Positions 26,866-46,386 of a stretch of DNA of 54,538 nucleotides are shown piece after piece. The notes below the pieces were generated by a model. It saw only the letters and a program-made list of their open reading frames with translations. It made no database searches and was not told where the DNA came from. Origin of the DNA: Gammaproteobacteria bacterium (GTDB lineage Bacteria > Pseudomonadota > Gammaproteobacteria > Xanthomonadales > SZUA-36); assembly GCA_021772935.1 (NCBI GenBank), contig JAJFLA010000050.1, positions 1 through 54,538 of the forward strand. The letters run 5' to 3'. The position numbers were made by a program, and so were the translations under genes. Numbering within the stretch: position 1 is the first letter of the stretch; every line of letters begins with the position of its first letter.

Positions 26866-26887
26866 GGGCGCTGTAGCGCCCCTTTTT
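26866..26887 (+). terminator. Terminator or attenuator between rubrerythrin and CCG-domain gene
   Basis: GGGCGC (26866-26871) and GCGCCC (26876-26881) form a strong hairpin around TGTA, followed by C and five T residues. It ends 22 bp before the next start codon, so no room is left for an independent promoter after it. It may be the rubrerythrin terminator, or an attenuator controlling read-through into the downstream Fe-S gene. Confidence 0.8.
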
Positions 26888-26909
26888 GTCCTGGAGTAGA
26901 GACTCAACA

Positions 26910-28256: not shown

Positions 28257-28258
28257 AG

Positions 28259-29035: not shown

Positions 29036-30196
29036 GTGAAACGCATGATATTCGATGATGATCATGACATGTTCCGTGATGGTGTGCGCCGTTTCATGCA
29101 ATCGGAGATCGAACCAAAGATTGAACAATGGCGGGAGAACGGCTGTTGTGATCCGGTGGCCTTTTTGAGGGCCGGCGAACAGGGTTTATTGTGCATGTGG
29201 GCTGACGAAAAGTACGGCGGCCTCGGCATTGAGGATTTCCGTTTTGAGCAAGTCGTCATTGAAGAGACCATCCGACATGGTGACATCGGTCTGTTCCTGA
29301 CACTCCACAGCCGCCTGGTGGGTCCGTATATAGGTCACTTGGGCAGTGAGCCGCTCAAGGCACGTTTGCTACCCAAATGCATTAGTGGTGAGACCATTCT
29401 CGGTATCGCAATGACGGAACCCAATGCTGGCAGCGATCTGGCTGGTATGAAATCCCGGGCAACGCGTGATGGGGATGACTGGATACTGAATGGCTCAAAG
29501 ACATTTATCTCCAATGGCATCAACGGTGGCGCTTTTATTGTCGCCGCCAGGACAGTACCGGGCAAACCACATGGCATCGGTCTGTTCGTCGTTGAAGATG
29601 ACATGCAAGGCTTCAGTCGTGGACGAAATCTGAAAAAAATGGGACTTAAAACCCAGGATACCGCCGAATTATTTTTCGAAAATGTTCGTATACCCGCAGA
29701 AAATGTACTCGGTGACCCGGAAAAGGGCTTCTACAACTTGATGCATCATCTTGCCGAAGAAAGACTCATCAGCGCTTGCCAGGAAGTTGCCCACGCCCAG
29801 GTCGCTTTTGACCTGACCATGGATTACATCCTCGAACGTAAAGCCTTTGGAAAACCCATTGCTGCGTTTCAGAACAGTCGCTTCAAGATGGCCGAAATGC
29901 GTACTTCACTGGATATTTTGCAAACCTTCATCGACCAGTGTGTGCTGTTACACAATCAGGGTGAGCTGAGCGCAGAGCTGGCCGCCGAGGCGAAACTTTT
30001 TGCCAGTGAACTGGAATCCACGGTCATGGACAATTGCGTACAACTGCATGGCGGTTCGGGTTATATGAGCGAATATCGAATCTCCCATATGTTCACCGAT
30101 GCCCGCGTGTCCCGTATTTATGCAGGTAGCTCCGAAATCATGAAAGAAATCATCGCCCGCAGCATCGGGCTTGATGAACGAAAGCTGCTGGGCTGA
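29036..30196 (+). CDS. Acyl-CoA dehydrogenase family protein
   Basis: The 386-residue FAD enzyme is of standard length. The N-terminal helical domain is followed by GIAMTEPNAGSDLAGMKSRA (flavin and substrate loop), WILNGSKTFISNG, KKMGLKTQDTAELFFENVRIP and the C-terminal CVQLHGGSGYMSEYRISHMF block. The substrate acyl chain cannot be told. GTG 29036 follows an AAGGA site by about ten bases; ATG 29045 is an alternative. The following gene encodes an unusual Fe-S protein and starts 28 bp later, so electrons might pass to it rather than to an ETF, which is inference. Confidence 0.93.
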   Translation: MKRMIFDDDHDMFRDGVRRFMQSEIEPKIEQWRENGCCDPVAFLRAGEQGLLCMWADEKYGGLGIEDFRFEQVVIEETIRHGDIGLFLTLHSRLVGPYIGHLGSEPLKARLLPKCISGETILGIAMTEPNAGSDLAGMKSRATRDGDDWILNGSKTFISNGINGGAFIVAARTVPGKPHGIGLFVVEDDMQGFSRGRNLKKMGLKTQDTAELFFENVRIPAENVLGDPEKGFYNLMHHLAEERLISACQEVAHAQVAFDLTMDYILERKAFGKPIAAFQNSRFKMAEMRTSLDILQTFIDQCVLLHNQGELSAELAAEAKLFASELESTVMDNCVQLHGGSGYMSEYRISHMFTDARVSRIYAGSSEIMKEIIARSIGLDERKLLG

Positions 30197-31237: not shown

Positions 31238-31894
31238 TCAGGCTTGACTTGTCTGCCTGATCAACAGCAAAAAGCTCTCACAGGCCATTTTTTTCATTGA
31301 CTGAAGTGCACTTTCTTGTTGTTTACCAGCACCTACGAACATCGTCATTCCTTCAATAGAGCACGAGACAAATAACGCGAGATGCTTTGCTTGCTGTAGC
31401 TCAAGATTCGGATTGATTGCCTGAATCAAATCACATATTGCTCGCCTCTCAGCCACGTACATGTCTTCCATCAATTCGGCGGCATGCTCATCATGGTTTG
31501 ACAGTGCCCAGAGTTCGGGGAAAAACCTGGTTGTTCGCTGACGGTTCAGATCATCAATAAGATACTCAATGACCGCCACAAAACGATCTTCCGGAATATG
31601 ACCGCTGGCCTTAACGATACGAGCCATTTCCTCCAGATAACCAGAGAGTATTTTTTCAAGCAGGTCTTTTAGCAGGGTCTCCTTGCTAGGGTAATAGTAG
31701 GTTAGATTTCCTACGGTTATGCCTGCACGCAAGGCGATCTGACGCAATGTCATTTTTTTGTAACCCTGGTTAATCAATACCTCCGCAGCCGCATCCAGGA
31801 TGGCATCGATTCGCACCTGGCCTTTTCCATAGGTAGCAGGCCTGGCGTGTCGTTGCTGTTTTTTTTCTTGCATAGGTAACCCGGTTACTTTCAT
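31238..31894 (-). CDS. TetR-family transcriptional regulator, divergent from QHNDH operon
   Basis: The 218-residue protein has an N-terminal TetR helix-turn-helix: IDAILDAAAEVLINQGYKKM, then TLRQIALRAGITVGNLTYYY and PSKETLLKDLLEKIL. A ligand-binding helical domain follows. ATG 31873 (MQEKKQQRH) is a plausible shorter start. It lies head-to-head with qhpA across about 170 bp containing a strong promoter and a palindrome, so it probably controls the amine dehydrogenase operon. In Paracoccus the described regulator of this operon is the AraC-type QhpR, so a TetR here would be a different control. It could also act on the convergent acyl-CoA dehydrogenase unit. Confidence 0.9.
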   Translation of the reverse strand: MKVTGLPMQEKKQQRHARPATYGKGQVRIDAILDAAAEVLINQGYKKMTLRQIALRAGITVGNLTYYYPSKETLLKDLLEKILSGYLEEMARIVKASGHIPEDRFVAVIEYLIDDLNRQRTTRFFPELWALSNHDEHAAELMEDMYVAERRAICDLIQAINPNLELQQAKHLALFVSCSIEGMTMFVGAGKQQESALQSMKKMACESFLLLIRQTSQA

Positions 31895-31954: not shown

Positions 31955-32064
31955 GTACACTTGTCCTAATTTAGTCGCCAGTTACACAACCAGGCTCCAG
32001 TCTTACAGTAAAGCCCGATAAAGAAAACTGGCAAATAACCCAGAGCCCCTTACGGATGCTTGCC

Positions 32065-33630
32065 ATGAAAAACACACTGCTTGGACTAATCACGATAATC
32101 CTTTTATCAGTTACAGGAACCAGTGTGGCCGCTTCGTTTGACAACAGTTCGCTTGTCTGGAAAAAATGCACACGCTGCCACCACCCTGATGAAAACGGAA
32201 ATATAGCCCGCATTGAGGAAATACGAACGACACCTGAAGAGTGGACCGTCATTGTTGACCGTATGCGCCGCCTGTATGGAATGCGTATCCAAAACGGTGA
32301 AATGGCTGCCTTGCTAAAGGAGCTTTGTGCCAGTCAAATACTCAGCCCCGAAGAAGCTACCGAGATTTCCTATATCAACCTGTTTAACAACCCCCAAACG
32401 ATCGAAACACCCAATGATATCGAAGAAGAACAATTGTTTGCTACCTGCGTTCGCTGTCACAGTGCCGGCAAAATTTACTCTTATCGCATGATGGCACCGG
32501 CTTGGGCAAAACTACGCGATTTTCATATCTACATTGACCCGGCCATCATGTATCAGATGCGCGAAATGTACTGGCGCAGTGAAGCAGATACTACGCTAAA
32601 AAGCCTGGCTAAAAAGCTACCCTACTCTCGCTCCTGGACAGCTCCGGAGGCAAAACCCGATGGCGAATGGTTGCTGCTCGGAGTCGAACCTGGCAAGGGT
32701 AATTATCGTGGCAAGGCAGTGCTGAAACCCATGGGTGATGACGAATACACGATGGAAGGGAGCTTAAGTTTTTCTGATGGCACCTTTGAATCGTTTGCTG
32801 GCGAAGCTACCCTCTATGGCGGTTACGCACTTCGTTCACGTACCCAGCAAAACGGCAGCGCAACCATGGGGGCGTTCCGTTTCCTGAACGGAAAGATCAG
32901 CGGTGAACACCACCACAATGCACCAGACTTCCGTACCTCCTCATCTACCTGGTTTCCTCTTACCGAAAAAAGTCAGGCGCTGCGGATCACACCCGGATAT
33001 CTGTTAAGCGGGGAGCAAACAACCATTTTAATTGAAGGCATCAACCTGCCAGAGGTTAGCGCAAAGGATATTTCAGTATCCAATGAGGAGGTCGTTGTTG
33101 AGCAAGCTACAACTACCAGCCCCGAGACCATCGAAGCAGTGCTCACCTACCGTGGTCAGGACCACCACAATCTGGACCTGAGTGTGAAAGGATTAAAAGT
33201 GCTCTCACTAAAGCTGGCACCACGCATTGACTACCTGAGTATGAACCCGAAACTCGGCCGGGCCCGAGTCAATGGTGGTGTCAATTATCCAGCAGAGGGT
33301 GTCCAATTCCAGGCCGTAGCTTACTCTGGCGGTGCAGATGCCGACAACCCACTGGATGACTATCTGTTGGGGCCGGTTGCCGCTGACTTCAGTCTGGCTG
33401 AAGAAGAGACCCGTGCGAACGATGATGACCTTGTCTATCTGGGCGCCATTGAGACCGACGGAACCTACCTTCCAGTGGGTGATTACAACCCCATCCCGAC
33501 CCGTGAATATGGCGGTGAAGGTACCGGTATGGTCAAAGTGATCGCCAAATATACTCGCGGGCCAACCATCTATACGGCTGAAGGACAACTGGTTGTGACT
33601 GTGCCCGACTACATACAAAGATTGAAATAA
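32065..33630 (+). CDS. qhpA: Quinohemoprotein amine dehydrogenase alpha subunit, dihaem
   Basis: QhpA carries two c-type haems that take electrons from the tryptophylquinone of QhpC during periplasmic oxidation of primary amines. The 521-residue product has a signal peptide ending near SVTGTSVAA. Two haem motifs follow: CTRCH at Cys35-His39 and CVRCH at Cys128-His132. The rest is beta-rich, as in known alpha subunits (GEWLLLGVEPGKGNYRGKAV, SGEQTTILIEGINLP, PRIDYLSMNPKLGRARVNGG). ATG 32056 adds three residues and is also possible. It is the first gene of qhpA-D-C-B, two U32 genes, qhpF and qhpE. Confidence 0.95.
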   Translation: MKNTLLGLITIILLSVTGTSVAASFDNSSLVWKKCTRCHHPDENGNIARIEEIRTTPEEWTVIVDRMRRLYGMRIQNGEMAALLKELCASQILSPEEATEISYINLFNNPQTIETPNDIEEEQLFATCVRCHSAGKIYSYRMMAPAWAKLRDFHIYIDPAIMYQMREMYWRSEADTTLKSLAKKLPYSRSWTAPEAKPDGEWLLLGVEPGKGNYRGKAVLKPMGDDEYTMEGSLSFSDGTFESFAGEATLYGGYALRSRTQQNGSATMGAFRFLNGKISGEHHHNAPDFRTSSSTWFPLTEKSQALRITPGYLLSGEQTTILIEGINLPEVSAKDISVSNEEVVVEQATTTSPETIEAVLTYRGQDHHNLDLSVKGLKVLSLKLAPRIDYLSMNPKLGRARVNGGVNYPAEGVQFQAVAYSGGADADNPLDDYLLGPVAADFSLAEEETRANDDDLVYLGAIETDGTYLPVGDYNPIPTREYGGEGTGMVKVIAKYTRGPTIYTAEGQLVVTVPDYIQRLK

Positions 33631-33643
33631 TGGAGTTGATTTA

Positions 33644-35041
33644 ATGGCTGAGCTTTTATCCTGGACTGATCACCGCGTCTTTACCGGTTCCGGCGAAGCA
33701 TTGATCTTTGGGGTAGAGGAAGCAAGTTTGTTTTCACTCAACCATAAAGCGCACGAGACACTGCTTAAATGGCGTTCGACCGAGTTGATTGACCTCGATA
33801 AAACACCATTACCCGATCAGGAAATGTTGCAGGGATTGCGTGATGCACAAATACTTTTGCCGGCAACTTGGCAGAAAGTTTGTCCGACCCCACCCAAACC
33901 CGGGCAAGTGCCACTCTCCACACTGGTACTGGAGGTGGCCCAGGATTGCAATCTGCGTTGTACCTATTGTTATGCTGAATCCGGCACTTATGGCGCAGCA
34001 CCCTGTCTTCTCGACCCTGATACAGCACGCCAGGCGGTACACCATTTGCTGGATAACTCAGGTGACCACAAGCATGTAACACTCATATTTTTCGGTGGCG
34101 AACCCTTGTTAAACATGCAGGCGATACGCGCCGCGGTCAGTGAAGCCATTTTATACGGTGAGAAAATCGATAAACAGGTTCACTTTTCAATTACCACTAA
34201 CGGCACGCTGCTTGACTCCGAAATCGTGGCGTTTTTACACGATAACCGGGTTTCCGTTGCCGTCAGCCTGGATGGACCAGGTCACATTCACGATCACAAC
34301 CGTCCCGATGAAAAAGGCAATGGAACCTATACCGAGATAGTCTCCCGTCTTGGAGTGTTACTGAAAAACTCACCCGTTCCAGTCGCAGCCAGGGTAACCC
34401 TTACACCCGATCAATGGCATGCGATGACCGAGGTTTATGACCACCTCATCGGTCTTGGTTTTCATGAAGTGGGCATCGCTCCGGTAAGCCCGGTGAATAA
34501 AACCTTGCTTGCTACACACGTGCAGCAAACAGCCCTGTTAAAAGGCTTTGAGTCGCTCGCCGATCGTTTTGTAAGCACGGCCAGAAAAGGGCTTGTCCTA
34601 CCCTTTTCGAACCTGCTCGACCTGCTGGCAAGAATTCATCTTGGGCAAACAAGAGCGGTATCTTGCGGTGCCGGTTTTGGCTATATGGCCGTGGATGCCA
34701 AAGGCGAGTTTTTCCCCTGTCACCGACTCACAGGGCAAGCAGATTTCAATGCTGGCAGTCTTGCGGAAGGTATCAATACGGACAGTATTACTTCCTGCTT
34801 GGATTCATTAAACAATGGTCGTTCACAAAGTTGCTCCAAATGCTGGGCGAGAAGTCTTTGTGTCGGCGGTTGCCATTACGAAAATCACTTGCGTGAAAAT
34901 CAGCTGGGTCTGCCACGTGGAACCAGTTGTAATTTTATCCGGAGTTGGCTGGACCTGGGAATCAGGACCTATGCCGAACTGCGCTCGGATGGTGCGATAG
35001 CAGCGATGGGGCAACGGCTTGAGCAACGCGCACAGTGTTAG
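33644..35041 (+). CDS. qhpD: Radical SAM/SPASM maturase QhpD (thioether crosslinks)
   Basis: QhpD uses radical SAM chemistry in the cytoplasm to form three Cys-to-Asp/Glu thioether links in QhpC. The 465-residue product has the cluster motif Cys102-x3-Cys106-x2-Cys109 (DCNLRCTYCYAESG), a GGEPLLN strand and a cysteine-rich SPASM region at the C-terminus (CGAGFGYMAVDAKGEFFPC, then CSKCWARSLCVGGCHYENH). Length and order match the family. A GGAG site lies nine bases before the ATG. It sits between qhpA and its substrate gene qhpC, as in described operons. Confidence 0.96.
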   Translation: MAELLSWTDHRVFTGSGEALIFGVEEASLFSLNHKAHETLLKWRSTELIDLDKTPLPDQEMLQGLRDAQILLPATWQKVCPTPPKPGQVPLSTLVLEVAQDCNLRCTYCYAESGTYGAAPCLLDPDTARQAVHHLLDNSGDHKHVTLIFFGGEPLLNMQAIRAAVSEAILYGEKIDKQVHFSITTNGTLLDSEIVAFLHDNRVSVAVSLDGPGHIHDHNRPDEKGNGTYTEIVSRLGVLLKNSPVPVAARVTLTPDQWHAMTEVYDHLIGLGFHEVGIAPVSPVNKTLLATHVQQTALLKGFESLADRFVSTARKGLVLPFSNLLDLLARIHLGQTRAVSCGAGFGYMAVDAKGEFFPCHRLTGQADFNAGSLAEGINTDSITSCLDSLNNGRSQSCSKCWARSLCVGGCHYENHLRENQLGLPRGTSCNFIRSWLDLGIRTYAELRSDGAIAAMGQRLEQRAQC

Positions 35042-35063: not shown

Positions 35064-35396
35064 ATGAAGAAAAAAAGACCGATTCAGGCGCTAAACGCAA
35101 AGGCCAGAGCGATCCAGTCATTGCTCGATGGTGAAGGCAAAACGGTTGCGGCGCTGCAACAAGGGCCACCGGCCATGCCGGTAGGTTGCACCACCATTTT
35201 TGACACTGGCTGGGAAACCAACCCGCGCCCCACTTATCCGGTTGGCAACTGCCAGTCTTCAGCTAAGGATTTTCATGGTTGTGCCGGGGACTGCTGGTGG
35301 CCGGCGCAGGTGCCTGACGGTCTCACCAACCATCAGGATTTTGACAAACAATGCCCCAATGTCGCCAGAGATTGGCGGGTACTTAAGTACGATTAA
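35064..35396 (+). CDS. qhpC: Quinohemoprotein amine dehydrogenase gamma subunit, CTQ precursor
   Basis: QhpC is the small catalytic subunit that becomes crosslinked and carries cysteine tryptophylquinone. The 110-residue product has a Lys/Arg-rich leader of roughly 30 residues. The crosslink partners keep the spacing of the Paracoccus protein: Cys42-Glu51 (Cys7-Glu16), Cys63-Asp69 (Cys27-Asp33), Cys77-Asp85 (Cys41-Asp49) and the cofactor pair Cys73-Trp79 (Cys37-Trp43). The cofactor region reads CAGDCWWP. Trp79 must gain two oxygens for the quinone, yet no qhpG is in the operon. The leader is the expected target of QhpE. The longer frame from 35019 overlaps qhpD and is not used. Confidence 0.95.
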   Translation: MKKKRPIQALNAKARAIQSLLDGEGKTVAALQQGPPAMPVGCTTIFDTGWETNPRPTYPVGNCQSSAKDFHGCAGDCWWPAQVPDGLTNHQDFDKQCPNVARDWRVLKYD

Positions 35397-35419: not shown

Positions 35420-36433
35420 ATGAACAGAAAAATTACTAATTTGCTGGTCATCACGATCATTTTGTTGGGCATGGGTAGCCAGGACACATTAGCAAAGGAC
35501 ACTTTTTATTACCTCGGCCATGGCATGATTCAGGTTGTTGATGGTAGTACGGATGCCATCGTGGCTGATATCCCGATAGACGGGTGGTTAAGGGAATCTG
35601 ATTTCAGCAGCGACAACAAGTTCCTCTATGTAACCGCAAAACGACATCTCATACACAAAGTTAACCTTGCCGAAAACCGGGTGGTAAAAACGATCGACGT
35701 GGGTGATAGCCAGTGGGAAAGATTCATTTATGGGTTCGATCTTGCACCGGACGGCAAGAGCGCTTTTGTCAATCTCCTGTCCCGCACGACCCGCCAGGGT
35801 GAAGTGGTGGTTGCTGCTCCCCGGTTGGCACAGATAGACCTTGAAGACGGCCATATCTTACGCAGTATTGAGGTGCCCTGGAGTTCTGTTTCGCTGGTCT
35901 CGGTTAAAAACTCCAGTCACATCTATGTCATTGGTAAAGACATTGTAATGGTAGACGTTAGCGATGATGAAATGAAGATCATTGATCGCTACTCCATGTT
36001 CGAAAAAAAGTGGAATATTTTGCCTTTATGGGATAACACAAAAGAAAATGGTGGCATCTTCATGGTCAACTACTACACGCCCGAACTCATGGGTTTGATT
36101 TCCATCGATACAAATAGCGGCGAGATCACCGATACCCCGCTTGATGGTCCGCCAGTTTTTGCTTACAGCGTCATGCGCTCCGTGGATAAAAAGAAAGTTT
36201 ATGCAGTTATGGATGAACTCACGGTTATCGATCTTGAGACACGTAGCTATGGCCCCATTATTCCGGTGCCTGGCGGCACCAATTACGCCATTAATATTTC
36301 CAGCGATGGCAAGAAAATCTACGTCGCGGGTGGTGGTTCGAGCACCACCGTTTTTGATGCAGCAAGCTTGAAACCCATCAAGGTTCTGAAGATGAAGACG
36401 GACGGTATGGATTTCAGACGTTTGACGTTCTGA
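35420..36433 (+). CDS. qhpB: Quinohemoprotein amine dehydrogenase beta subunit
   Basis: QhpB is the beta-propeller subunit that forms part of the amine-binding pocket. The 337-residue product has a signal peptide (about residues 1-26, ending near SQDTLA). Repeated blades of the YVTN/methylamine-dehydrogenase heavy-chain type follow (DGSTDAIVADIPIDGW, SSDNKFLYVTAKRHLIHKVNL, DLAPDGKSAFVNL, SSDGKKIYVAGGG). No haem motif is present, as expected. The start of the first U32 gene overlaps its stop by one base, tying that pair to the structural genes. Confidence 0.94.
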   Translation: MNRKITNLLVITIILLGMGSQDTLAKDTFYYLGHGMIQVVDGSTDAIVADIPIDGWLRESDFSSDNKFLYVTAKRHLIHKVNLAENRVVKTIDVGDSQWERFIYGFDLAPDGKSAFVNLLSRTTRQGEVVVAAPRLAQIDLEDGHILRSIEVPWSSVSLVSVKNSSHIYVIGKDIVMVDVSDDEMKIIDRYSMFEKKWNILPLWDNTKENGGIFMVNYYTPELMGLISIDTNSGEITDTPLDGPPVFAYSVMRSVDKKKVYAVMDELTVIDLETRSYGPIIPVPGGTNYAINISSDGKKIYVAGGGSSTTVFDAASLKPIKVLKMKTDGMDFRRLTF

Positions 36434-37260
36434 TGGAATACGGCCTACGCATCGCCACGCTGGAAAGTGCTTTCAAAAACCCGGCAGATGTCTGTGATGC
36501 AGCCTTATTGAAACACTGTCCCGATGCACCATTAACAGCACTTTATTTCGGATCGGAATTTTGTCAGGAATTATTACCACGTAACAACGAAGCCAACACT
36601 TTTTGCACCCATTGTGCGACACGGAACCTGCAAGCAGTTCTGCTCACACCCGTGGTTACAGGCAAGGGTTTGAAACGCTTGGATCGCCTGCTGACCAGTC
36701 TGGCCGAACGGGGCTGGTTTCCAGCCGTTGTATTTAACGACTGGGGTGTTTTAGAACTACTTCGAAGCAAACACGCAGATCTTTCACGTCATATGGGACG
36801 ACTGATGAACCGGGGATTGAGAGACCCACGGCTTAACATGCAGGCTATCGCCCCCGGTGGCGAAAACACCGAAAGAGGTTCAGGTATCAGAAAACTGGCC
36901 TCGTCCCTCGGTGTGAGTGCAGTGGAATCGGATGCCGACCTGGAACCTGGCTTTTTGGGTACCGCCAACGATGGGTTTACACGTACCCTGCATCTCCCTT
37001 TCACCTTTGTGAGTTCAGGAAGAAACTGCCTGGAGAAAGCTGCGGCTGCGTCTGTGGGCAAAGGAATTTTTACCCAAGGCCTGCACTCTGCCTGTTCCGC
37101 CCCATGTCGAGGTGTGTATCGGCAAGAGATTCGACAAGACACGCAAAAACCGTTGTGGCGTGCGGGTAATACGGTATTTTTTGAAGCACCGCCTGCGTGG
37201 ATCGCGCGTCATATTGAGCTTGCTGACCGGGTAGTATTTCACGAGCAGCCCATGCCATGA
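36433..37260 (+). CDS. U32-family, UbiV-like protein in QHNDH operon
   Basis: The 275-residue protein has no signal peptide. It shows a TIM-barrel-like U32 pattern: LYFGSEFCQELL near residue 37, FPAVVFNDWGVLELL near 96, GRLMNRGLRDPRLNM near 122. Cysteines are at 21, 29, 44, 58, 61, 199, 221 and 225. An early cysteine (Cys44) plus a late C-x21-C-x3-C set (199, 221, 225) resembles the 4Fe-4S ligands of UbiV. UbiV with UbiU hydroxylates a quinone precursor without oxygen. The gene overlaps qhpB by one base and the next U32 gene by four. I infer a role in CTQ formation; the substrate is unproven. Confidence 0.75.
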   Translation: MEYGLRIATLESAFKNPADVCDAALLKHCPDAPLTALYFGSEFCQELLPRNNEANTFCTHCATRNLQAVLLTPVVTGKGLKRLDRLLTSLAERGWFPAVVFNDWGVLELLRSKHADLSRHMGRLMNRGLRDPRLNMQAIAPGGENTERGSGIRKLASSLGVSAVESDADLEPGFLGTANDGFTRTLHLPFTFVSSGRNCLEKAAAASVGKGIFTQGLHSACSAPCRGVYRQEIRQDTQKPLWRAGNTVFFEAPPAWIARHIELADRVVFHEQPMP

Positions 37261-38261
37261 AATCTGTTCATGACAATCAAGGTATTAAAATCCTGTCACC
37301 ACTTAGAAGCGTCAGTGAAGTAGCTCCATTGCTGGCTGCCGGTGCGGATGAGTTTTATTGTGGGCTGGCCCCAACCGGTTGGGAACAACGCTTTGGTGCG
37401 ACATGGACCAACCGCAGACACCCGCATGCAGCAGCGGTGTTAAATGAGCAGGCATTGGCAGACATCATTACCGCCGCTGGCTCAGTACCCGTCCATGTCG
37501 CCCTGAACGCGCCCCACTACCCTCGAGGCGCGGTAAAAGTTTTGACGGAGTTTGGCTGCCAACTATTACAGGATATGGGAGTCAGCGCGCTGATTGTAGC
37601 GGACATGGATCTCTTACTGGCATTGATTGAGGCGGGTCATGCGGCGAAATTGCACCTGTCCAGCCTCGCCACCTGCACCAATATCGGCAGCTCACGGTTC
37701 TTCGGCGACCTGGGTGTCAGCAGGATCATCTTACCAAGACACCTGACGCTGGCTGAGATCGATCAATGCATGATCGATGGCGTAGATTTTGAGACATTCC
37801 TGATCAACGACGGTTGTGTATTTGAAGAGGGCCTGTGCGCCACAACCCATCAAGCGGGTACCTTTTGCCTGGCCGATGGCGATGGGCTGAAAGATATGCC
37901 CGAGGATCTGCTCGAGCGTTACGCCTTTTGGAAATGGACCCAAAACAATTGTGGTTGTAGCTCCAGCAAGGGATACCCTCTGGGCCCCTGTGGGCTTTGT
38001 GCTATTCCAAGATTTCAAGCTGCCGGTGTCATGAGCTTGAAGGTCGTCGGCAGGGAAGCATCTCTTGAACGAAAATATACCTCGGTCAAACTGGCAGTCA
38101 TGGCAAGAGACATCGCCCGAGCCGGAGGCGGCGCGGAAGAGATAAGAGAAGCAACCATAGCGCTTCGCGGTGCTGCCTCACTTTGTCATAACAGTCATGC
38201 CTGTTATTACCCGGATGTTTGGAAAACCGGCACAGACAGCGCCATGGTGGATCACAGATGA
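37257..38261 (+). CDS. U32-family, UbiU-like protein in QHNDH operon
   Basis: The 334-residue protein opens with the U32 pattern KILSPLRSVSEVAPLLAAGADEFYCGL, followed by LHLSSLATCTNIGSSRFFGDLGVSRIILPR. Candidate cluster ligands are Cys187-x6-Cys194, Cys204, Cys232, Cys234, Cys245 and Cys248; the C-x6-C spacing matches the first two ligands of UbiU and TrhP. SLKVVGREAS corresponds to the LKIEGR motif of the family. There is no signal peptide. It overlaps its U32 partner and qhpF by four bases each (ATGA), so all three are translationally coupled. A heterodimeric oxygen-independent hydroxylase acting on QhpC is my inference. The peptidase annotation usual for U32 is probably misleading here. 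Confidence 0.8.
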   Translation: MKSVHDNQGIKILSPLRSVSEVAPLLAAGADEFYCGLAPTGWEQRFGATWTNRRHPHAAAVLNEQALADIITAAGSVPVHVALNAPHYPRGAVKVLTEFGCQLLQDMGVSALIVADMDLLLALIEAGHAAKLHLSSLATCTNIGSSRFFGDLGVSRIILPRHLTLAEIDQCMIDGVDFETFLINDGCVFEEGLCATTHQAGTFCLADGDGLKDMPEDLLERYAFWKWTQNNCGCSSSKGYPLGPCGLCAIPRFQAAGVMSLKVVGREASLERKYTSVKLAVMARDIARAGGGAEEIREATIALRGAASLCHNSHACYYPDVWKTGTDSAMVDHR

Positions 38262-39970
38262 ATTCACTAAAACTGTTTAGTGGACATCTCAGACAGCGAA
38301 AAAAAACGCTGGCAGCACTATTTTTTCTAGGCTTGCTCGGCTCCGCTGCTTCTTTGTCTTCACCTTTAATCGGCAAAGCCTTTATCGATGCGGTAGTTGA
38401 GCGTGATGATTACGACTTGATTCCAATTATCGCCGTGGCACTCATTGTGCTAGCTCTCGCTGATGTCATCATTGGTTTTATTTCAAGACTCGTACACACA
38501 AAACTTTCTGCCGGTATTCTTGTTGAAATCCGGCAAAGACTATTTCATCACTGTTTGTACGCCCGCATGGAAGGCGTGGAGCGCTTCCGTCACGGTGACC
38601 TGCTAAGCCGGTTTGGATCTGACATACCACAAATTCAAGCACTACTGGTTGATGGTGTTATTGGTTTCTTGCACAACCTGCTGTTCCTACTGATTAGTGC
38701 TGTGATATTGGTCTATCTTTCACCTTTGCTGGCATTCTGGAGTTACCTGGGTTTGGCTATTGCACTGATTATCACGACAGTGTTTCGTGGTCCCACAGAG
38801 ACTGGAACACGTAATATTCGAGAAAAAATGGCTGACCTGTCCCATTTTCTCGCCGAACGGCTTGGCGCCATTCGTAGCATCCGGTTTCACCGGACAGAAA
38901 CACAGGAAACAGAAACATTCGCGGCTATCAATGAACAACTGGTCCAGCGTGTCATCAAGTTTCAAACCATCGATTCAGCGGCGACCCAACTACCGGGTTT
39001 AGCGCTGTCAATCAGCCTGGCATGGATCTATCTGCTTGGCGGTGGCCAGTTGCAAAGTGGCGCCATTGGGCTCGGTACCTTTGTTGCCTTTGTGCTCTAC
39101 CAAGGCCGACTCTTCGGACCCGCTGCCAGTCTTTTAGGCTTGTTTAGAACCTTGCAGGCTGCTCGCGTAAGCCTTGACCGAGTGGCAGAAATTCTGGGCG
39201 ACGGGGAGGTCAGGCAGCGGGTTGAATACAGACACGCTGATAAGCAGGCTGCGATATGTCTGGAAAATGTCACATTCACTTATACACAAGACACGCCCGT
39301 ATTGAACGGTCTGAATCTACACGTGGACCACGGCGAAAAGGTTGCCGTATTTGGCACATCCGGTGTCGGTAAATCCACACTTGTACAAATCCTGTTTGGC
39401 TTGCGTAAACCCCATAGTGGCAAAGTCAAAATCACCACTGGCAGTCTCTCCAGCGATGGCATCGGGCAGCCCCAACATGCACTTGGATACGCCTCATCTG
39501 AACCCTTCCTGTTGCATGCAAGTGTCACGGAAAACCTTCGCTACGGAAACCTGACCGCATCCACCGAAGCAATGGTCGAAGCCGCAAGGCTAGCCGAGGC
39601 AAACAAATTCATACTTTCTTTGCCTGAAGGCTTTGACACCATCATTGGCGGTAGAGGTCAGAGTCTTTCAGATGGGCAACGTCAGCGGCTAGGTCTTGCA
39701 CGCCTATTCCTGGCTGATCCGGATGTATTGGTTCTGGACGAGGCATTTTCGGCCATGGACCCGGAAACAGAGCGTCGCGTGCGCGCTAATCTGTTCAACA
39801 CATTTGCTGACCGTGCTGTTTTGACCATCAGCCACCGGCTCACAGGACTTGAACAGTTTGATCGCTTGTTGCTCATGCTCAAAGGCAAGCTACAGCAGGT
39901 AAGTGAAGAAGAATTGTTCAGCTATTTTGAATTGCATCATCCACAACAAGAACAGCCGCGAAAAGCATAG
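38258..39970 (+). CDS. qhpF: ABC transporter QhpF, fused permease and ATPase
   Basis: QhpF is an exporter proposed to move crosslinked QhpC to the periplasm. The 570-residue half-transporter has six N-terminal helices (TLAALFFLGLLGSAASL, LIPIIAVALIVLALADVIIGF and others). The nucleotide-binding domain has Walker A near residue 366 (GTSGVGKST), the signature LSDGQRQRLGLARL, Walker B VLVLDEAFSAMD and the switch His in TISHRL. ATG 38258 overlaps the U32 stop; the frame upstream to 38219 is unused. qhpE follows by 11 bp. Confidence 0.93.
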   Translation: MNSLKLFSGHLRQRKKTLAALFFLGLLGSAASLSSPLIGKAFIDAVVERDDYDLIPIIAVALIVLALADVIIGFISRLVHTKLSAGILVEIRQRLFHHCLYARMEGVERFRHGDLLSRFGSDIPQIQALLVDGVIGFLHNLLFLLISAVILVYLSPLLAFWSYLGLAIALIITTVFRGPTETGTRNIREKMADLSHFLAERLGAIRSIRFHRTETQETETFAAINEQLVQRVIKFQTIDSAATQLPGLALSISLAWIYLLGGGQLQSGAIGLGTFVAFVLYQGRLFGPAASLLGLFRTLQAARVSLDRVAEILGDGEVRQRVEYRHADKQAAICLENVTFTYTQDTPVLNGLNLHVDHGEKVAVFGTSGVGKSTLVQILFGLRKPHSGKVKITTGSLSSDGIGQPQHALGYASSEPFLLHASVTENLRYGNLTASTEAMVEAARLAEANKFILSLPEGFDTIIGGRGQSLSDGQRQRLGLARLFLADPDVLVLDEAFSAMDPETERRVRANLFNTFADRAVLTISHRLTGLEQFDRLLLMLKGKLQQVSEEELFSYFELHHPQQEQPRKA

Positions 39971-39981
39971 GATCAACTGAT

Positions 39982-40635
39982 TTGCCCACGCAAAACCTAC
40001 TGATCGGAATCATAGACACGGGTGTAAATCCATGGCACTCCCACGTCCGCGGCGATGTACGGGGTTGTCGGATTTTCCTAAACGAAAATCAGGGCATCTG
40101 CGAAGACAGTGATTTTTTCGATCCGCTGGGTCACGGTACGGCAGTGGCAGGTATTTTGCGAAAAGCGTTACCTGCAGCCGAGATTTTTGCAGTTCGTGTA
40201 TTTGAAAACGACCTCACCACTTATCCGTCCCTGGTTGCCAGGGCAATCTTGCGGGCTGCCGCTGAGGGCTGCGATGTTATCAATCTGAGTTTAGCGTTGC
40301 CGTCAGGTATTGGTGCTGAATTGCTCGCTGACGCATGTGCTACAGCTCAGCAGGCTGGCTCTATCCTGGTCGCAGCAGGTGATCCGCAACAGCCGGGATT
40401 GCTGCCGGCCTCTTTGTCAGGTGTCTACGAGGTTATCGCTGATGATTCACTTGAAGATGAGCAGATAGAGATGCATGCCGGGGGCGCCTATCCCTGTCGT
40501 GCACGGGCTTACCCACGTGAATTGGATTCCATCCCGCCGGAGGCGAACCTCTGGGGGCATTCACTTGCCTGCGCACGGGTCACGGCTTACCTGGCGCAGG
40601 AATTATCCTGCCAAAATGATGACGCACACAGCTAG
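39982..40635 (+). CDS. qhpE: Subtilisin-like serine protease QhpE (leader peptidase of QhpC)
   Basis: QhpE removes the QhpC leader after crosslinking. The 217-residue product is a minimal subtilase with the full triad: Asp12 (GIIDTGVNPWHSH), His51 (PLGHGTAVAG) and Ser194 (WGHSLACARVTAYL). No signal peptide or propeptide is present, so it acts in the cytoplasm, in line with cleavage before export. The start is TTG at 39982, without an upstream in-frame ATG close by. It is the last recognisable qhp gene; no flavin monooxygenase follows. Confidence 0.93.
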   Translation: MPTQNLLIGIIDTGVNPWHSHVRGDVRGCRIFLNENQGICEDSDFFDPLGHGTAVAGILRKALPAAEIFAVRVFENDLTTYPSLVARAILRAAAEGCDVINLSLALPSGIGAELLADACATAQQAGSILVAAGDPQQPGLLPASLSGVYEVIADDSLEDEQIEMHAGGAYPCRARAYPRELDSIPPEANLWGHSLACARVTAYLAQELSCQNDDAHS

Positions 40636-40725: not shown

Positions 40726-43700
40726 ATGCAGGTTAAACACCTGGTTTTGATCTTACTCGTGTTGGCCTGCCAAGCCACGCGAGCTGAGGACTGCCCCTCT
40801 GGACTCCTTGTTGCAGGTGAGCAGATAAACTCCCAGCGTAAGCCTCTGTCATTAGCATCCTTTAACACTTGGCTGAATTCTTGCGACAAACGGGGAATTA
40901 AATCACTGGCGCCTCCAGGCTCTTCAACAGATCGCAAATGGATTCGCCCAGGAATTTATGTTTTATCTCGTGATCTTGCTCGCCGTGAGCATGCGACCTT
41001 TGTTATTGATGTGCCCCTCGGCCAGTTGTTGACCTTACAGGCTGTGATATTAGATAGTGCGAAAGACAGCACCGCCTCTATCTCAAACATCTCTCTTCAA
41101 CTAACCCCACCGGGCGCCAAAACCCGCAGAACAACTTTAAACAAACGCCAGCGCTGGACCGAGCTCAGAACCGTCTCCAGCAGTGGCGAAAGCGCGGAAA
41201 TCCGACTCGGTAGTGACTTGAGCAAGACACCGGCGGGAGTGCTGCTGTCAGCTCAGATAAGCCGCCTGACAGAGGGCGTGGGGGTGGAGGATTCTTCGGC
41301 ACAGCACACGGTGCAGTGGCAAAATGGTTTCCAGGGTCACCTCGGCCTCGAAGACCAACAGGATGTTATCGAGCTCACGGCTGAGCACAGCGGTAAAACG
41401 ATCACCGTAACGACTGACGATGCCGGATTTGGGTTTACCCTGGGCAGCTACGGAGATGACCGACAACTGGCGGACTCGGCCAAGGGCAAAGGCAAGGCCA
41501 GCGTCACCTTGCCAAAAGCCCAGAGAATTTTACTGGCGATCAAGGATGCCAGCTCGATTGATACCAACAGACCTCGTTACCGCGATCGGCGGCGTCATAC
41601 CCGCTACCGCGTGAGCCTGTCAGAAACAACGACCCCAGAGTCTGCTCAAACCGGTACTGAAGACGAAGCGGAAGGTACCGAAGCCCTTCGTACCCGACCA
41701 TTTGCATCAAATCGGGAAGCACGGGCAGCGTTTGCAGCGGAGTTTTTAAAACAAGCAGATTCGAATTGGCAGCCCTTTGAATTCAACAAGGATACGCAAC
41801 AAAGCCTGCTACAGGGCATCGGGACCGCATTCTTTTTGAAGGCAAAACAAACCGATGAGCTTGGATATCACGATTACGACCTGAGCCGCTTATCGGTGAT
41901 ATGGGAATCACTCACAGCGGCGCAAAAGCAACAATACCAGCCCCTGATTCTTCCCCCTGACAATCCCGCCAGCCACTTCCATCCCAAGAATCTCGACTGG
42001 CGGAGTCACCTTCCAAAACTATCCCCTCGGTCGTCTCAAACAAACCAGTGGCAACACTGGATAGACCTGTTTCTTGGCAGTACCAGCGCCCATGCGGCCA
42101 ACATCACAGAGATTCAATTTGATCCCGATGATATCTCTCCTGGAAGTTATGTCACCTGGCACTCAGCGGTTTATGACAACATGATGGTGCATATTCCACA
42201 AAATGTCCTGGCCGCACTTTCAGGAAATTTCAGCGAAGAGTTAGAGCAATCTCTTAACGATCACCTGCTGGATATAGGTGCCAAGGTGCTTACTGCCGCA
42301 GAGCAGGCTTTGCCGAATCAGTTACATTTCTTTGGCATCAACATTTCACAACTTGATTTGCCATTGGAGTTTTGGGTGGTGGGGGATATGTACTCCGGTC
42401 ATGTCTCGTCCGCCAACGGCCTGCACTATAACTGCCAGCAAATGTACATCAGCGCGTGGGCTGAAAAGACCGATGGCACCACGGCCCATGAGCTTTTCCA
42501 TTGTTTCCAGAAAAGCCTCGGCATGATGGGTATGACCGGAATTTTTGATGAAAAATGGATGATAGAGGGCGGCGCGAAGCTGGGGGAGCATATTGGTCTA
42601 CCCCAGCGTGACACTGAGCACAGTTGGTACCCACCCTATGCCAAAAACCCCGACATCTCCCTGTTTACCAAAACCTATTCTGCGGGTCTTGGCTGGTTCG
42701 CCATGTATATGCGACCCGACATGGGCCCCGGCTATGTGCGTGATCAGTTTCTTTATTACGCCGACACCATGAGCAGATCTGCCCACGCCGGGCGGCTGAG
42801 ACCACACTGGCATGACGTCGCTCTGGATTTAAGCAACTCTTCAATAGTGTATGCAAGCAACGAAGGGGTGGTGCCAACAGATTCCGGGATACCGATAGAT
42901 CTATCAATGGTCAAAGTGAAAGACGTTCAGATTGGCAGCATGGAGGCACAATTGTTTGAAGCGGAGTTACAAGCCATGAGTGCTTCTTATATGGATATCC
43001 AGCTTGCGGCTGCAGTACGTAGCAAACTGAATTATGTACGGTTTAGTCTGGGTGGCGAGATTGCGCCACAAGACCCTGATCTGGAAATATCCGTCGCCAT
43101 TCTGACTGCCACAGGCGTAAGTTTTCATGAGGTGGAGTTGGACACCGATGAGCACGGCATCGTTTATTTTCTGATTTGCGTCAAATCCAACACGGTTTGC
43201 GACCAGGCCGGAGAAACCCAAATTTATGAAGGCCTGGTGAGTATGTTTATTACCATCACAAATAGTGCGCCACAAAAGTCCCTGTCAATACTGGGCCTGA
43301 TCGAACCTTTTGGACCCAATCAATACAAATTGCAGAAAGTGCACTTCAACAATGAAACCTTGAGAGTGCCCGCCAGTGGTGGTTCTACACTTAACATCGA
43401 TTTAGACAACGAAACTGAAGAAGATCGCGGTATTTACACCGAGGCAAATAATGCCTGGATGAAGTTCGACAGCCAGTTTTACAACTGGGATGCACTGGAG
43501 TCGCCCCAGACCAACCCGCAAGTGGATGTACACCCCACGCGTCTGACCGGGTATGTTAATGCACAATGCCGATTCCGAGGCCACATGGGCTACGATATTG
43601 AAGATAGCAGCTCAGAGGAACTGGAGGCTGGTTGGATACGCCGCACTTTTAAAATCAAACGTAAAACCGGTGATGACGGCAGTGGTGACTTTTACAAGAC

Positions 43701-43992
43701 AAAACATCGCTTCGTCTGCGGCAAGGCCAAAGCCGGAACCGACCTGGGGGTTGCGGGAATGCCATTCTATGCCGCCTACGCCAAAATGCTGGCCGCGATT
43801 AATGCCACTGACTATGCAGAGGATTCATTTGCCATGAAACTGCGCAGTATTTTTGCACAAACCATATCTCTTGGCTTAATCAGCAATAGTTCCAGCGAAA
43901 GGGAAGGAGAAGTGGCGTTAGAGTTTCAAAGTGACCAGCTACTACGTATCAAGTATTCGGATAATTTGGTTTTGTACTATGTGAAGGAGTGA
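40726..43992 (+). CDS. Large secreted protein with HExxH zincin-like motif
   Basis: The 1088-residue protein has a signal peptide (cleavage likely after QATRA, residue 20). The N-terminal third is beta-rich and resembles pre-peptidase C-terminal-type modules (FQGHLGLEDQQDVIELTAEHSG). The centre has TTAHELFHCFQ with His588, Glu589 and His592, and WMIEGGAKLGEH with Glu614. Two His plus a Glu 22 residues later is a gluzincin layout, so it is probably a secreted metallopeptidase. The C-terminal part is beta-rich with a few cysteine pairs. I do not recognise a named family. It starts 90 bp after qhpE and precedes a VWA protein and another secreted protein. A REPIN sits right after its stop. Confidence 0.75.
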   Translation: MQVKHLVLILLVLACQATRAEDCPSGLLVAGEQINSQRKPLSLASFNTWLNSCDKRGIKSLAPPGSSTDRKWIRPGIYVLSRDLARREHATFVIDVPLGQLLTLQAVILDSAKDSTASISNISLQLTPPGAKTRRTTLNKRQRWTELRTVSSSGESAEIRLGSDLSKTPAGVLLSAQISRLTEGVGVEDSSAQHTVQWQNGFQGHLGLEDQQDVIELTAEHSGKTITVTTDDAGFGFTLGSYGDDRQLADSAKGKGKASVTLPKAQRILLAIKDASSIDTNRPRYRDRRRHTRYRVSLSETTTPESAQTGTEDEAEGTEALRTRPFASNREARAAFAAEFLKQADSNWQPFEFNKDTQQSLLQGIGTAFFLKAKQTDELGYHDYDLSRLSVIWESLTAAQKQQYQPLILPPDNPASHFHPKNLDWRSHLPKLSPRSSQTNQWQHWIDLFLGSTSAHAANITEIQFDPDDISPGSYVTWHSAVYDNMMVHIPQNVLAALSGNFSEELEQSLNDHLLDIGAKVLTAAEQALPNQLHFFGINISQLDLPLEFWVVGDMYSGHVSSANGLHYNCQQMYISAWAEKTDGTTAHELFHCFQKSLGMMGMTGIFDEKWMIEGGAKLGEHIGLPQRDTEHSWYPPYAKNPDISLFTKTYSAGLGWFAMYMRPDMGPGYVRDQFLYYADTMSRSAHAGRLRPHWHDVALDLSNSSIVYASNEGVVPTDSGIPIDLSMVKVKDVQIGSMEAQLFEAELQAMSASYMDIQLAAAVRSKLNYVRFSLGGEIAPQDPDLEISVAILTATGVSFHEVELDTDEHGIVYFLICVKSNTVCDQAGETQIYEGLVSMFITITNSAPQKSLSILGLIEPFGPNQYKLQKVHFNNETLRVPASGGSTLNIDLDNETEEDRGIYTEANNAWMKFDSQFYNWDALESPQTNPQVDVHPTRLTGYVNAQCRFRGHMGYDIEDSSSEELEAGWIRRTFKIKRKTGDDGSGDFYKTKHRFVCGKAKAGTDLGVAGMPFYAAYAKMLAAINATDYAEDSFAMKLRSIFAQTISLGLISNSSSEREGEVALEFQSDQLLRIKYSDNLVLYYVKE

Positions 43993-44157: not shown

Positions 44158-46386
44158 TTGAAGCACTTATACCGTTTAGCATGGCTTACTTTTCTGTCTT
44201 GTAGCAATGTCTGGGCTCAAGCTGATTTTAGTGTTGCTGAGTCCAGCCCTACAGCTGTGAAAGTCGAGCTCTCCTCCGAGGTGGCTGCCGAGGTGCCGGT
44301 TGTGATCCTGTTTGATCGCTCAGCCAGTATGAAAAAAGACCTGGATGGCACACCGCGGATAGACCTTGCGAGGGACGCACTGGATGCATGGAGCACAACA
44401 TTGGCCGGGCGGCGCAATGTGGCCGTGCGCTTTTTCGCCGGTGGTAGTGATGCCTTAAATGAGGCAATCAATTGCGAAGCCAGCGAACTGGTGATTCCAC
44501 TTGGACGCAAAATTGATACACCCGACATGACCGCACTCAGTGAAGCGGTGCGTGCCATCGGTCGTAAAACCAATATTGCCTATGCCCTTAAACAGGCACA
44601 AACCGATCTGGCCGGTAAGGGGCCAGGCAAGATTATTCTGATTTCCGATGGTCTGGAAAACTGTCAGGGCGATCCCGTTCAACTGGCGCGCGAACTGGGT
44701 AATTCGGGTATTCAGATTGACGTTCTGGCCATTGGTAAAGCCCAGGATGTAGCAGGACTGGGTAAAATTGCACTGGCAGCCAGAGGTCAATTTAGTATGG
44801 CCAGCAACGCCCGCCAGTTTTCACAACAGATGCAGCAACAGTTACCCAACTTTGATATTCCAGATATGCCGCCAGCGGGGCAGTCATCCGACGCCATGAA
44901 TTCACCTCTGCTATCCATCATCGAAGTACCAGGCACAGCAACGGCACAGGCGGCACCTGCCATAGAGCCGCTGGTACTTGATAGCACCCTGGTCAGCGAA
45001 GAGCCTCCCGGCCACATCGCGATCGAACTGATACTGGATGCCAGCGGCTCCATGTGGGGCCGGATTGGTGACGAAACCAAGATTTCCATTTCCCGCAAGG
45101 CGCTGGCAGAGACATTGGGAGGGCTGGATGATCCGATTTTCATGGTGGGGCTACGGGCCTACGGGTTTGACAATACCGTGCCCAAGACCGCAGAAGCTTC
45201 TTGCCCCAACACCGAGCTGCTAAGCCCGATAGAAACCGACAACCTGCAGCAAATTCATGCGGTTGCGCAATCGCTGACGCCCTATGGTTATACACCAATT
45301 ACACAAAGCCTCTCCCTGGCGGGTGATGACCTGTCTGTGCTGGAAGCCGACAGCCGAATGATTGTGTTGATTACCGATGGCAAGGAAACCTGCGATGGCG
45401 ATCCGGTTGCTACCGCCCAAAAATTGTGCCAGCTGGGGATTGGGCTGGAGACCCATATCGTCGGTTTTGACCTTGAGCCTGAAATGGTGGCGCAAATGAA
45501 ACGTGTAGCCGAGGTGGGCTGCGGTACTTATAGCGATGCCAGGGACGCCAAAGAACTCACCCAGGCACTCAGCGCCATTGTGGAAGGGGCGCAATCAAAA
45601 ATCGACCCCACCTGGTTGCGCACTATCTATCCCATAGAAGGTGGCAGTAATGCGGAAGCGGCGGTGCCATTAAACAACGGCACTTACACCTTAAAACGCA
45701 GTTTGGCTAAGGCTGAGCAGATGTATTTTCGTGTCAACACGCAGCGTGCACAGCATGGTCTTTTGCGCGGCTTGATTCAATCCGCCAGGTTGGTTCGCAA
45801 GGGCACAGAAATGATCGAATCAGAAATTGGCCTGGCGCAATTCACACTAACGCTTTATCCACCCAACGACAGCAAGGGCCGAGGCAGAAAAATGCGGCTG
45901 GCAGGGGAGCCCGGCAGCTACAACCAAATTGGTTATCTCGACACCCTTGGTGAGGGATTCGTATTTTCCATTGGCAGTAACTACGATACCGTGCACCAGG
46001 ATTCTTTATTCAATGTGGCTGTCCGGGAAGCCGGAGATATTTATGAAGGTTTTGAGGCACCAGGTAAGGAAGACCCTACCAAACCTATTGAGCTGCCAGT
46101 GGACCATGTCGTCATAGCACACTTAGGGGAAGGTGATTTTGCAGATTCATATCAATTGCCTATGCAGACAGGTCGGGCTTCGATCACCACCAGTAACACA
46201 CAATACGCATTTAGTGTCAGTATCTATTCTGCAGATGGGCAGCGGCTCGCTCGCCAACGCGCCAGGGGGCAACTGGATTTCGAGATTCCCGATGGCGCTG
46301 CCGGTGGCAGCTTGCTTATCGAGGATAAAAACCCAAGTTTAAAACAGGTGTTCACCACTTATGAAATATCGCTTTCAACGAAGTAA
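44158..46386 (+). CDS. Secreted protein with two von Willebrand A domains
   Basis: The 742-residue protein starts at TTG 44158, eight bases after GGGAGGG, and has a signal peptide ending near SNVWA. The first VWA domain has the metal-site motif DxSxS at Asp53, Ser55, Ser57 (ILFDRSASM). The second has Asp294, Ser296, Ser298 (LILDASGSMWG). Each is followed by a LISDGLENCQGD or LITDGKETCDGD strand, so the two domains look like duplicates. The C-terminal 250 residues are beta-rich and unassigned. VWA domains bind protein partners through a divalent metal; the secreted zincin-like protein upstream and the overlapping gene downstream are likely partners. Function is unknown. Confidence 0.82.
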   Translation: MKHLYRLAWLTFLSCSNVWAQADFSVAESSPTAVKVELSSEVAAEVPVVILFDRSASMKKDLDGTPRIDLARDALDAWSTTLAGRRNVAVRFFAGGSDALNEAINCEASELVIPLGRKIDTPDMTALSEAVRAIGRKTNIAYALKQAQTDLAGKGPGKIILISDGLENCQGDPVQLARELGNSGIQIDVLAIGKAQDVAGLGKIALAARGQFSMASNARQFSQQMQQQLPNFDIPDMPPAGQSSDAMNSPLLSIIEVPGTATAQAAPAIEPLVLDSTLVSEEPPGHIAIELILDASGSMWGRIGDETKISISRKALAETLGGLDDPIFMVGLRAYGFDNTVPKTAEASCPNTELLSPIETDNLQQIHAVAQSLTPYGYTPITQSLSLAGDDLSVLEADSRMIVLITDGKETCDGDPVATAQKLCQLGIGLETHIVGFDLEPEMVAQMKRVAEVGCGTYSDARDAKELTQALSAIVEGAQSKIDPTWLRTIYPIEGGSNAEAAVPLNNGTYTLKRSLAKAEQMYFRVNTQRAQHGLLRGLIQSARLVRKGTEMIESEIGLAQFTLTLYPPNDSKGRGRKMRLAGEPGSYNQIGYLDTLGEGFVFSIGSNYDTVHQDSLFNVAVREAGDIYEGFEAPGKEDPTKPIELPVDHVVIAHLGEGDFADSYQLPMQTGRASITTSNTQYAFSVSIYSADGQRLARQRARGQLDFEIPDGAAGGSLLIEDKNPSLKQVFTTYEISLSTK

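Follow-up and report, generated by a model that had tools for sequence, protein, structure and literature searches.

A U32 gene pair in place of qhpG in a quinohemoprotein amine dehydrogenase operon, a candidate for oxygen-independent tryptophan hydroxylation

A QHNDH Operon With Two U32 Genes and No qhpG

We identified a complete-looking operon for quinohemoprotein amine dehydrogenase (QHNDH) in contig JAJFLA010000050.1 of the gammaproteobacterial assembly GCA_021772935.1, in which two genes of the U32 family, here named U32a and U32b, stand where a gene for the tryptophan-modifying enzyme QhpG might be expected. The stretch analysed, referred to as the window, comprises positions 1 to 54,538. 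According to the list of open reading frames (ORFs) and the Pfam and NCBIfam matches, the gene order on the + strand is qhpA, qhpD, qhpC, qhpB, U32a, U32b, qhpF, qhpE. The first gene, qhpA (32056..33630), encodes the alpha subunit with two CxxCH haem motifs (recognized by eye) and matches PF09098, PF14930, and PF09100. It is followed by qhpD (33644..35041), encoding a radical S-adenosylmethionine/SPASM maturase expected to make the thioether cross-links of QhpC, by qhpC (35064..35396) for the gamma subunit precursor, and by qhpB (35420..36433) for the beta-propeller beta subunit. Next come U32a (36433..37260), encoding a UbiV-like protein of 275 amino acids, and U32b (37257..38261), encoding a UbiU-like protein of 334 amino acids. 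The operon ends with qhpF (38258..39970, ATG start at 38258; PF00664 and PF00005), an ATP-binding cassette (ABC) transporter gene whose product is expected to export QhpC, and qhpE (39982..40635) for a subtilisin-like leader protease. The ORF coordinates agree with the original observation that the two U32 genes overlap each other and their neighbours by 1-4 bases: qhpB and U32a share 1 base (36433), and U32a and U32b as well as U32b and the start of qhpF share 4 bases.

Among the Qhp proteins for which an NCBIfam model exists, QhpC is the only one that scores above its equivalog cut-off (NF037958, 118 bits, cut-off 50). QhpA (TIGR03908, 265 bits, cut-off 274), QhpD (TIGR03906, 329 bits, cut-off 453), QhpB (TIGR03907, 87 bits, cut-off 223), and QhpE (NF049966, 137 bits, cut-off 165) stay below theirs, although these models are their best matches, and because of these scores the operon is classified, by sequence, as that of a divergent QHNDH. 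Alignment of QhpC to chain G of 1JMX indicated that Cys73, Trp79, C42, E51, C63, D69, C77, and D85 are all kept, and Trp79 aligns with Trp43 of that chain, in line with its earlier designation as the target residue. We take Cys73/Trp79 to be the pair that forms the cysteine tryptophylquinone (CTQ) cofactor, and C42/E51, C63/D69, and C77/D85 to be the three cross-links. The CTQ and cross-link positions are invariant in 11 diverse QhpC sequences.

No qhpG is present in the window operon. With the QhpG profile used here, crystallised QhpG (7CTQ) scored 482 bits and the next chain, the halogenase CmlS, 106 bits. Searched against the own genome, which is 98% complete, this profile gave only partial matches of 38 and 26 bits, compared to 509-574 bits in three control genomes. 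The expectation that no qhpG homologue would be found elsewhere in this genome was thus borne out. Pfam and NCBIfam recognize QhpA, QhpD, QhpC, QhpB, QhpE, and the ABC transporter, confirming that the operon holds all QhpC-processing genes except qhpG, and the U32 pair is its sole addition to them. As QhpD, QhpE, and QhpF are present and QhpG is absent, the tryptophan step is the only maturation step left without an enzyme.

The Pair Resembles UbiV-UbiU and Forms Clades of Its Own

U32b is a clear U32 protein with a PF01136 match of 90.5 bits (E 1.3e-25, cut-off 22.4). U32a gave no Pfam or NCBIfam match at E 0.01, and its predicted membership rests on fold, a UbiV profile match, a UbiV-like cysteine pattern, and its place in the tree; the earlier assignment of both genes to the family was therefore confirmed by PF01136 for U32b, and for U32a on these other grounds. 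Using hhalign, U32b matched a UbiU alignment with probability 99.9 and a TrhP alignment with 99.3; its score against the UbiU equivalog NF047963 was 61.6 bits, far below the cut-off of 440. For U32a the best of three alignments was UbiV (probability 86, E 5e-6 over 102 columns), followed by UbiU and U32b (both 4e-5). The AlphaFold model of U32a (pLDDT 79.5) had as best PDB match 5d88, the U32 protein MK0906 (E 7.7e-6, TMt 0.51). The same structure ranked second for the model of U32b (pLDDT 85.5; E 5.7e-6, TMt 0.50), which other barrels match as well. Both models thus have the predicted U32 barrel fold.

In a tree of U32 proteins, U32a and U32b form a clade each, U32a with UbiV and U32b with UbiU as its nearest neighbour, and both are apart from UbiU, UbiV, TrhP, and RlhA. 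The profile matches, the score under the UbiU cut-off and the separate clades together suggest that the pair mirrors UbiV-UbiU and is nevertheless distinct from it. The own genome also encodes canonical UbiU (476 bits to E. coli UbiU), UbiV (250 bits), and TrhP (589 bits) elsewhere than the pair. U32b is weakly separated (support 3) in the tree from three lone relatives. These relatives were found at L305 (7501-8514), L306 (7711-8724), and L307 (6563-7768), each in a Geobacter-phylum genome that carries a qhp-linked pair too, and scored 161, 174, and 178 bits in the whole-genome search and 180-200 bits in local stretches. They were considered as a second copy of the pair, which was ruled out by the lack of U32a and qhp genes in the surrounding 13-15 kb, and by sequence they are possibly a further U32 enzyme.

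Residue conservation was assessed in sets of 66 rows each (63 distinct sequences, as three genomes were entered twice), the rows being matched stretches of >240 amino acids. Cys44, Cys199, Cys221, and Cys225 of U32a are invariant in 66/66 rows, as are Glu179 and Cys187, 194, 204, 245, 248, 310, and 316 of U32b (full-length numbering). The U32a pattern C...C-x21-C-x3-C resembles C...C-x12-C-x3-C of UbiV, and the exact UbiV motif CXnCX12CX3C is not found in it. In U32b the motif E179-x7-C187-x6-C194 has the same spacing as E162/C170/C177 of TrhP and E161/C169/C176 of RlhA, residues that are reported to be essential in these two enzymes (PMC6599085). The CX6CX15CX3/4C spacing described for most U32 families (PMC6747719) is lost after the second cysteine. 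According to the same source, UbiU and UbiV form a heterodimer in which each protein holds a [4Fe-4S] cluster via four cysteines (PMC6747719). All 68 loci that have both genes (65 without repeats) show U32a before U32b with the two on one strand, and U32a-U32b is a conserved module.

QhpG Is Absent From Most Genomes With the Pair

The distribution of the pair and QhpG was first surveyed in the best 80 of 556 confirmed qhpC loci in GTDB species genomes, nearest to the window QhpC. At the locus itself the pair was found in 35 cases, U32a alone at a contig end in three (L025, L042, L052), QhpG in 26, and neither in 16. Whole-genome searches of the last group detected U32b in three (L081, L096, L047), QhpG in four (L079, L086, L099, and L089, the match in L089 being a 121-bit partial one at a contig end) and a distant QhpG relative of 129-197 bits in four Binatia genomes. 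This brings the totals to 41 with U32, 30 with QhpG, four with distant QhpG, three with neither, and two (L023, L050) in which a search made for QhpG alone found none. Seven genomes with neither gene beside the first-found qhpC hold the pair elsewhere, namely L081, L096, L047, and four more. Among the searched genomes none carried both pair and QhpG. The best QhpG match in 40 of the 41 U32 genomes (all but L048) was 77 bits, compared to 376-574 bits for near-full-length QhpG, and in 29 of the 30 QhpG genomes (all but L062) no U32b match exceeded 109 bits, which is the level of UbiU and TrhP, compared to 361-489 bits for complete true U32b. In Leisingera ANG1 (L066), a U32b-like match at the qhpG locus was examined as a counterexample and rejected, as the whole-genome search showed it to be a 105-bit UbiU beside UbiV (L108). 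The L062 record, titled Nocardioides marinus, has a qhp operon that scores like Leisingera and is probably a mislabelled or contaminated assembly.

Judged by their record titles, hosts of the U32 type belong to Desulfobacteraceae, Desulfococcaceae HSG8, Desulforhabdus TSK, Geobacter, Acidobacteriota, Nitrospinota, Pseudomonadota, and Poribacteria (in the last with U32a at a contig end). Of these, the genera Geobacter and Desulforhabdus live as obligate anaerobes. When plasmids were searched for U32-type operons, nothing matched U32b at E 1e-20.

Some loci deviate in qhpD. In Candidatus Binatia a set of A, C, and B genes, for which no qhpD was detected, occurs in four loci (L091 from 8129, L092 from 8152, L097 from 8123, and L090) and adjoins a set with qhpD in three of them. 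Similarly, qhpD was not detected in the local stretch of the qhpC loci L047, L048, L056, L059, L060, and L090, among which L048 and L056 carry the pair. The QhpC proteins of L059 and L060 keep the cross-link residues; these loci perhaps represent a third kind of maturation, or have qhpD located elsewhere in the genome.

A second survey sampled four taxa: the window's own phylum and its own order, the order to which a Burkholderiales genome belongs, and the phylum that includes Geobacter argillaceus. Twenty qhpC-positive genomes were tested, the other positives being already in the first survey or the window itself. Without G628 (21 bits, under the cut-off) and G1050 (apparently the same genome as G324, with which it shares size and coordinates), 18 remain: ten with U32b only (one partial, G584), eight with QhpG only, and none with both or neither. 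Five of the ten U32 genomes repeat the first survey (L020, L021, L022, L037, L047). Co-occurrence of qhpG with the pair in most operons, named beforehand as a finding that would speak against replacement, was not seen, QhpG being absent from 40/40 U32 genomes of the first and 10/10 of the second survey.

Rhodocyclaceae and Aromatoleum aromaticum EbN1

The third survey covered the betaproteobacterial family of Methyloversatilis, which we take to be Rhodocyclaceae in GTDB. QhpC was detected in 44 of 297 genomes, and QhpG was searched genome-wide in 34 of these 44, including every U32 genome. The pair is present in 27 genomes, 20 without and 7 with QhpG, and QhpG without the pair in local stretches was found in 16. 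In the U32-only genomes G1562, G1596, G1830, and G1640 the pair lies ~14-30 kb from the operon. Because 7 of the 27 U32 genomes also carry QhpG, strict mutual exclusion, which held in the first two surveys, has to be rejected; the exclusion of pair and QhpG is strong, not absolute.

One of the seven, G1645, is A. aromaticum EbN1, as 5-kb stretches of two of its contigs match the EbN1 plasmids NC_006823.1 and NC_006824.1 with 100% identity. This genome has two qhp operons with the pair at both and qhpG at one. The operon L209 has the order A D C B F E U32a U32b and no qhpG within 20 kb, and the operon L208 is flanked by qhpG, the sole one of the genome, and at its opposite end by a U32 pair in divergent orientation. 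To judge by the title of a 2019 study of EbN1, QHNDHs initiate anaerobic amine degradation in this strain, and its abstract is said to describe CTQ maturation as independent of O2. If that is right, the pair is the obvious candidate for O2-free CTQ maturation in EbN1, and a strain with both routes would resemble bacteria that keep both UbiIHF and UbiUV.

Repeated Switches Between the Pair and qhpG on the QhpD Tree

A first, unrooted QhpD tree contained 67 loci (39 U32, 26 QhpG, 2 unlabelled). Left out were ten Leisingera-type rows, L015-L018 (the same genomes as L022, L020, L021, and L037), and loci with a QhpD stretch of <330 amino acids; the QhpG label that L014 and three Binatia loci carry in the trees comes from weak matches (118-197 bits, one of them partial). 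At least three label switches are required, all forced by well supported branches. An extended set of 113 rows, in which genomes with two operons form two rows and QhpG-only Rhodocyclaceae were scored as lacking U32 from local stretches, save G746 and G1153 (whole genome), has seven switches between U32-only and QhpG-only. Among the 8-10 independent pairs of rows differing in one trait, the other trait differed in the opposite direction in about five and in the same direction in none. The U32 pair takes the place of qhpG at several positions in the QhpD tree.

Proposed Function and Alternative Explanations

In the system described in PMC7876137, QhpG acts on QhpC that is already cross-linked and attaches both oxygens to its tryptophan in one complex; the oxygens do not derive from water, O2 is the proposed source, and QhpG is described as essential where studied. 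UbiUV can stand in for UbiIHF, with no 18O2 incorporated (PMC10470549). Prephenate is reported to be required by RlhA and TrhP (PMC6599085) and is given as the oxygen source of anaerobic ubiquinone synthesis in a review (PMC11574389). By analogy, we consider it probable (roughly four in five) that U32a and U32b act as an iron-sulfur (Fe-S) enzyme that hydroxylates the QhpC tryptophan without O2, doing the job of QhpG. What the analysis shows directly is the gene content and order of the operon, the conserved residues, the fold, the distribution, and the replacement of qhpG. U32a and U32b would form a heterodimer of the UbiV-UbiU kind, with one [4Fe-4S] cluster probably bound by each protein. 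The substrate in the cytoplasm would be the QhpC precursor after cross-linking by QhpD, and the pair itself would place two oxygens onto Trp79 (Trp43 of mature QhpC), rather than one of them coming from water, with prephenate or a product of prephenate as the likely oxygen donor. QhpE would then remove the leader and QhpF export QhpC, and the quinone would be finished in the periplasm. Some bacteria would keep both pair and QhpG. The original proposal of an O2-free replacement for QhpG is supported, as far as gene content and distribution go, because QhpG is absent from the own and most U32 genomes, the hosts include lineages that we take to be obligate anaerobes, and the EbN1 operons carry the pair; catalysis, donor, and clusters are predicted from sequence and analogy.

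Several observations weigh against this proposal. The two Bryobacterales loci L059 and L060 have QhpC, with no qhpD in the locus and neither QhpG nor U32b genome-wide. L083 has neither gene and lies at a contig edge, and the QhpG search of L023 and L050 found no QhpG. The Rhodocyclaceae add G1586, with no QhpG genome-wide and no pair on its 72-kb contig, to which the U32 search was limited, and the seven genomes with both pair and QhpG (G1645, G1735, G1648, G1755, G1593, G1710, G1754), in which the pair is no replacement of QhpG and may have a second role; in G1593, G1710, and G1754 the operon has the pair alone and QhpG lies elsewhere in the genome. The sign test on the independent pairs is borderline (median p 0.06, range 0.03-0.25). 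Compared to single E. coli UbiV or UbiU sequences the match of U32a is not significant, and by sequence it is only a distant relative of UbiV. Finally, we found no report in the literature of a U32 enzyme that acts on a protein.

Four other explanations were weighed. The pair could add a single hydroxyl or activate the ring, the second oxygen being taken from water in a later oxidation, for example by the haems of QhpA, a water step that we infer. Other tryptophylquinone modifying enzymes are described to add only the second oxygen, to mono-hydroxylated tryptophan (PMC7876137), and RNA-modifying U32 enzymes to add one hydroxyl (PMC6599085). UbiUV, on the other hand, is reported to replace three hydroxylases of one ring (PMC10470549), and QhpG adds both oxygens in one complex according to PMC7876137, making this alternative unlikely, if still worth keeping in mind. 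It is less probable again that the pair modifies another substrate, such as RNA, a quinone, QhpA or QhpB, and is linked to the operon because bacteria benefit from QHNDH under the same anoxic conditions. This would fit the U32 enzymes characterised in the sources at hand, which act on RNA or ubiquinone precursors, and the seven genomes with pair and QhpG together, but the U32a and U32b clades stand apart from UbiU, UbiV, TrhP, and RlhA, the own genome has separate UbiU, UbiV, and TrhP, the pair substitutes for qhpG at several positions in the QhpD tree, and without it the operon would have no tryptophan hydroxylase.

A second, unrecognized hydroxylase elsewhere in the U32 genomes could perform the QhpG step. 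Only one profile was used genome-wide, so that remote flavoproteins could escape, and generic flavin adenine dinucleotide (FAD)-type matches of 25-77 bits occur in many U32 genomes; the same profile nevertheless caught the distant Binatia relatives of 129-197 bits, and an O2-dependent enzyme would be of no use to anaerobic hosts, so we regard this as very improbable. Least credible is that the pair serves QhpC as an additional peptidase or chaperone, with spontaneous or haem-driven tryptophan oxidation, as the family name peptidase U32 and the mono-hydroxylation thought to be autocatalytic in LodA/GoxA and methylamine dehydrogenase (PMC7876137) might suggest, because QhpE and QhpD are still there, QhpG is reported to be indispensable in the systems studied (PMC7876137), both U32 enzymes with a tested E-x7-C-x6-C motif are hydroxylases in the account of PMC6599085, and spontaneous oxidation would presumably require O2.

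The described CTQ route runs via QhpG, which depends on O2. Yet obligately anaerobic lineages include carriers of qhp genes, and QHNDH is active in a denitrifier. The pair that we propose as an O2-free hydroxylase offers the missing enzyme of CTQ synthesis in such hosts. If true, O2-independent hydroxylation by U32 enzymes would extend from RNA and ubiquinone to proteins, and QhpC would be a genetically encoded substrate for studying the unsettled U32 chemistry in the test tube. More tentatively, at somewhat less than even odds, the pair would be the first U32 enzyme with a protein substrate, namely an Fe-S peptidyl-tryptophan dihydroxylase that takes its oxygen from prephenate or a derivative, and this route may predate QhpG, the O2-dependent enzyme having replaced it later, in which case tryptophylquinones need not postdate oxygen. 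None of the publications among the matches listed treats U32 proteins together with QHNDH; subscription journals are poorly covered, so priority is unsettled.

Other Genes in the Window

A TetR-like protein (31238..31894, - strand; labelled by eye) is encoded divergently from the operon and is a possible regulator. Further upstream, 26886-28843 encodes a cysteine-rich protein of 456 amino acids with Fe-S-like motifs (by eye) and then a small protein, upstream of an acyl-CoA-dehydrogenase-like ORF (29036-30196). Directly 3' of qhpE are two large, possibly secreted proteins (40726-43992 and 44158-46386, by eye), the second of which has von Willebrand-A-like stretches (by eye).

Comparison With Known Systems

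The operons of Pseudomonas and Leisingera (L012, L013) have qhpA, B, C, D, E, and F and all QhpC cross-link residues in common with the window operon, which differs from them by the U32 pair in place of qhpG and by most subunits scoring under the NCBIfam equivalog cut-offs. The pair would share with QhpG (7CTQ) the proposed reaction, the substrate, and the place in the order of maturation, and both are encoded at the qhp operon, whereas QhpG is an FAD monooxygenase that needs O2 and belongs to another fold class. TrhP and RlhA, the prephenate-dependent RNA hydroxylases, have the E-x7-C-x6-C motif and the U32 domain in common with U32b; they act on RNA, whereas U32b forms a separate clade. A parallel in organization is UbiU-UbiV: both systems consist of neighbouring U32 genes, a UbiU-like one and a UbiV-like one, with conserved cysteine patterns. 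The window pair differs from it by the reversed order (V-like first), the separate clades, the canonical UbiUV elsewhere in the genome, and the proposed substrate, which would be a protein.

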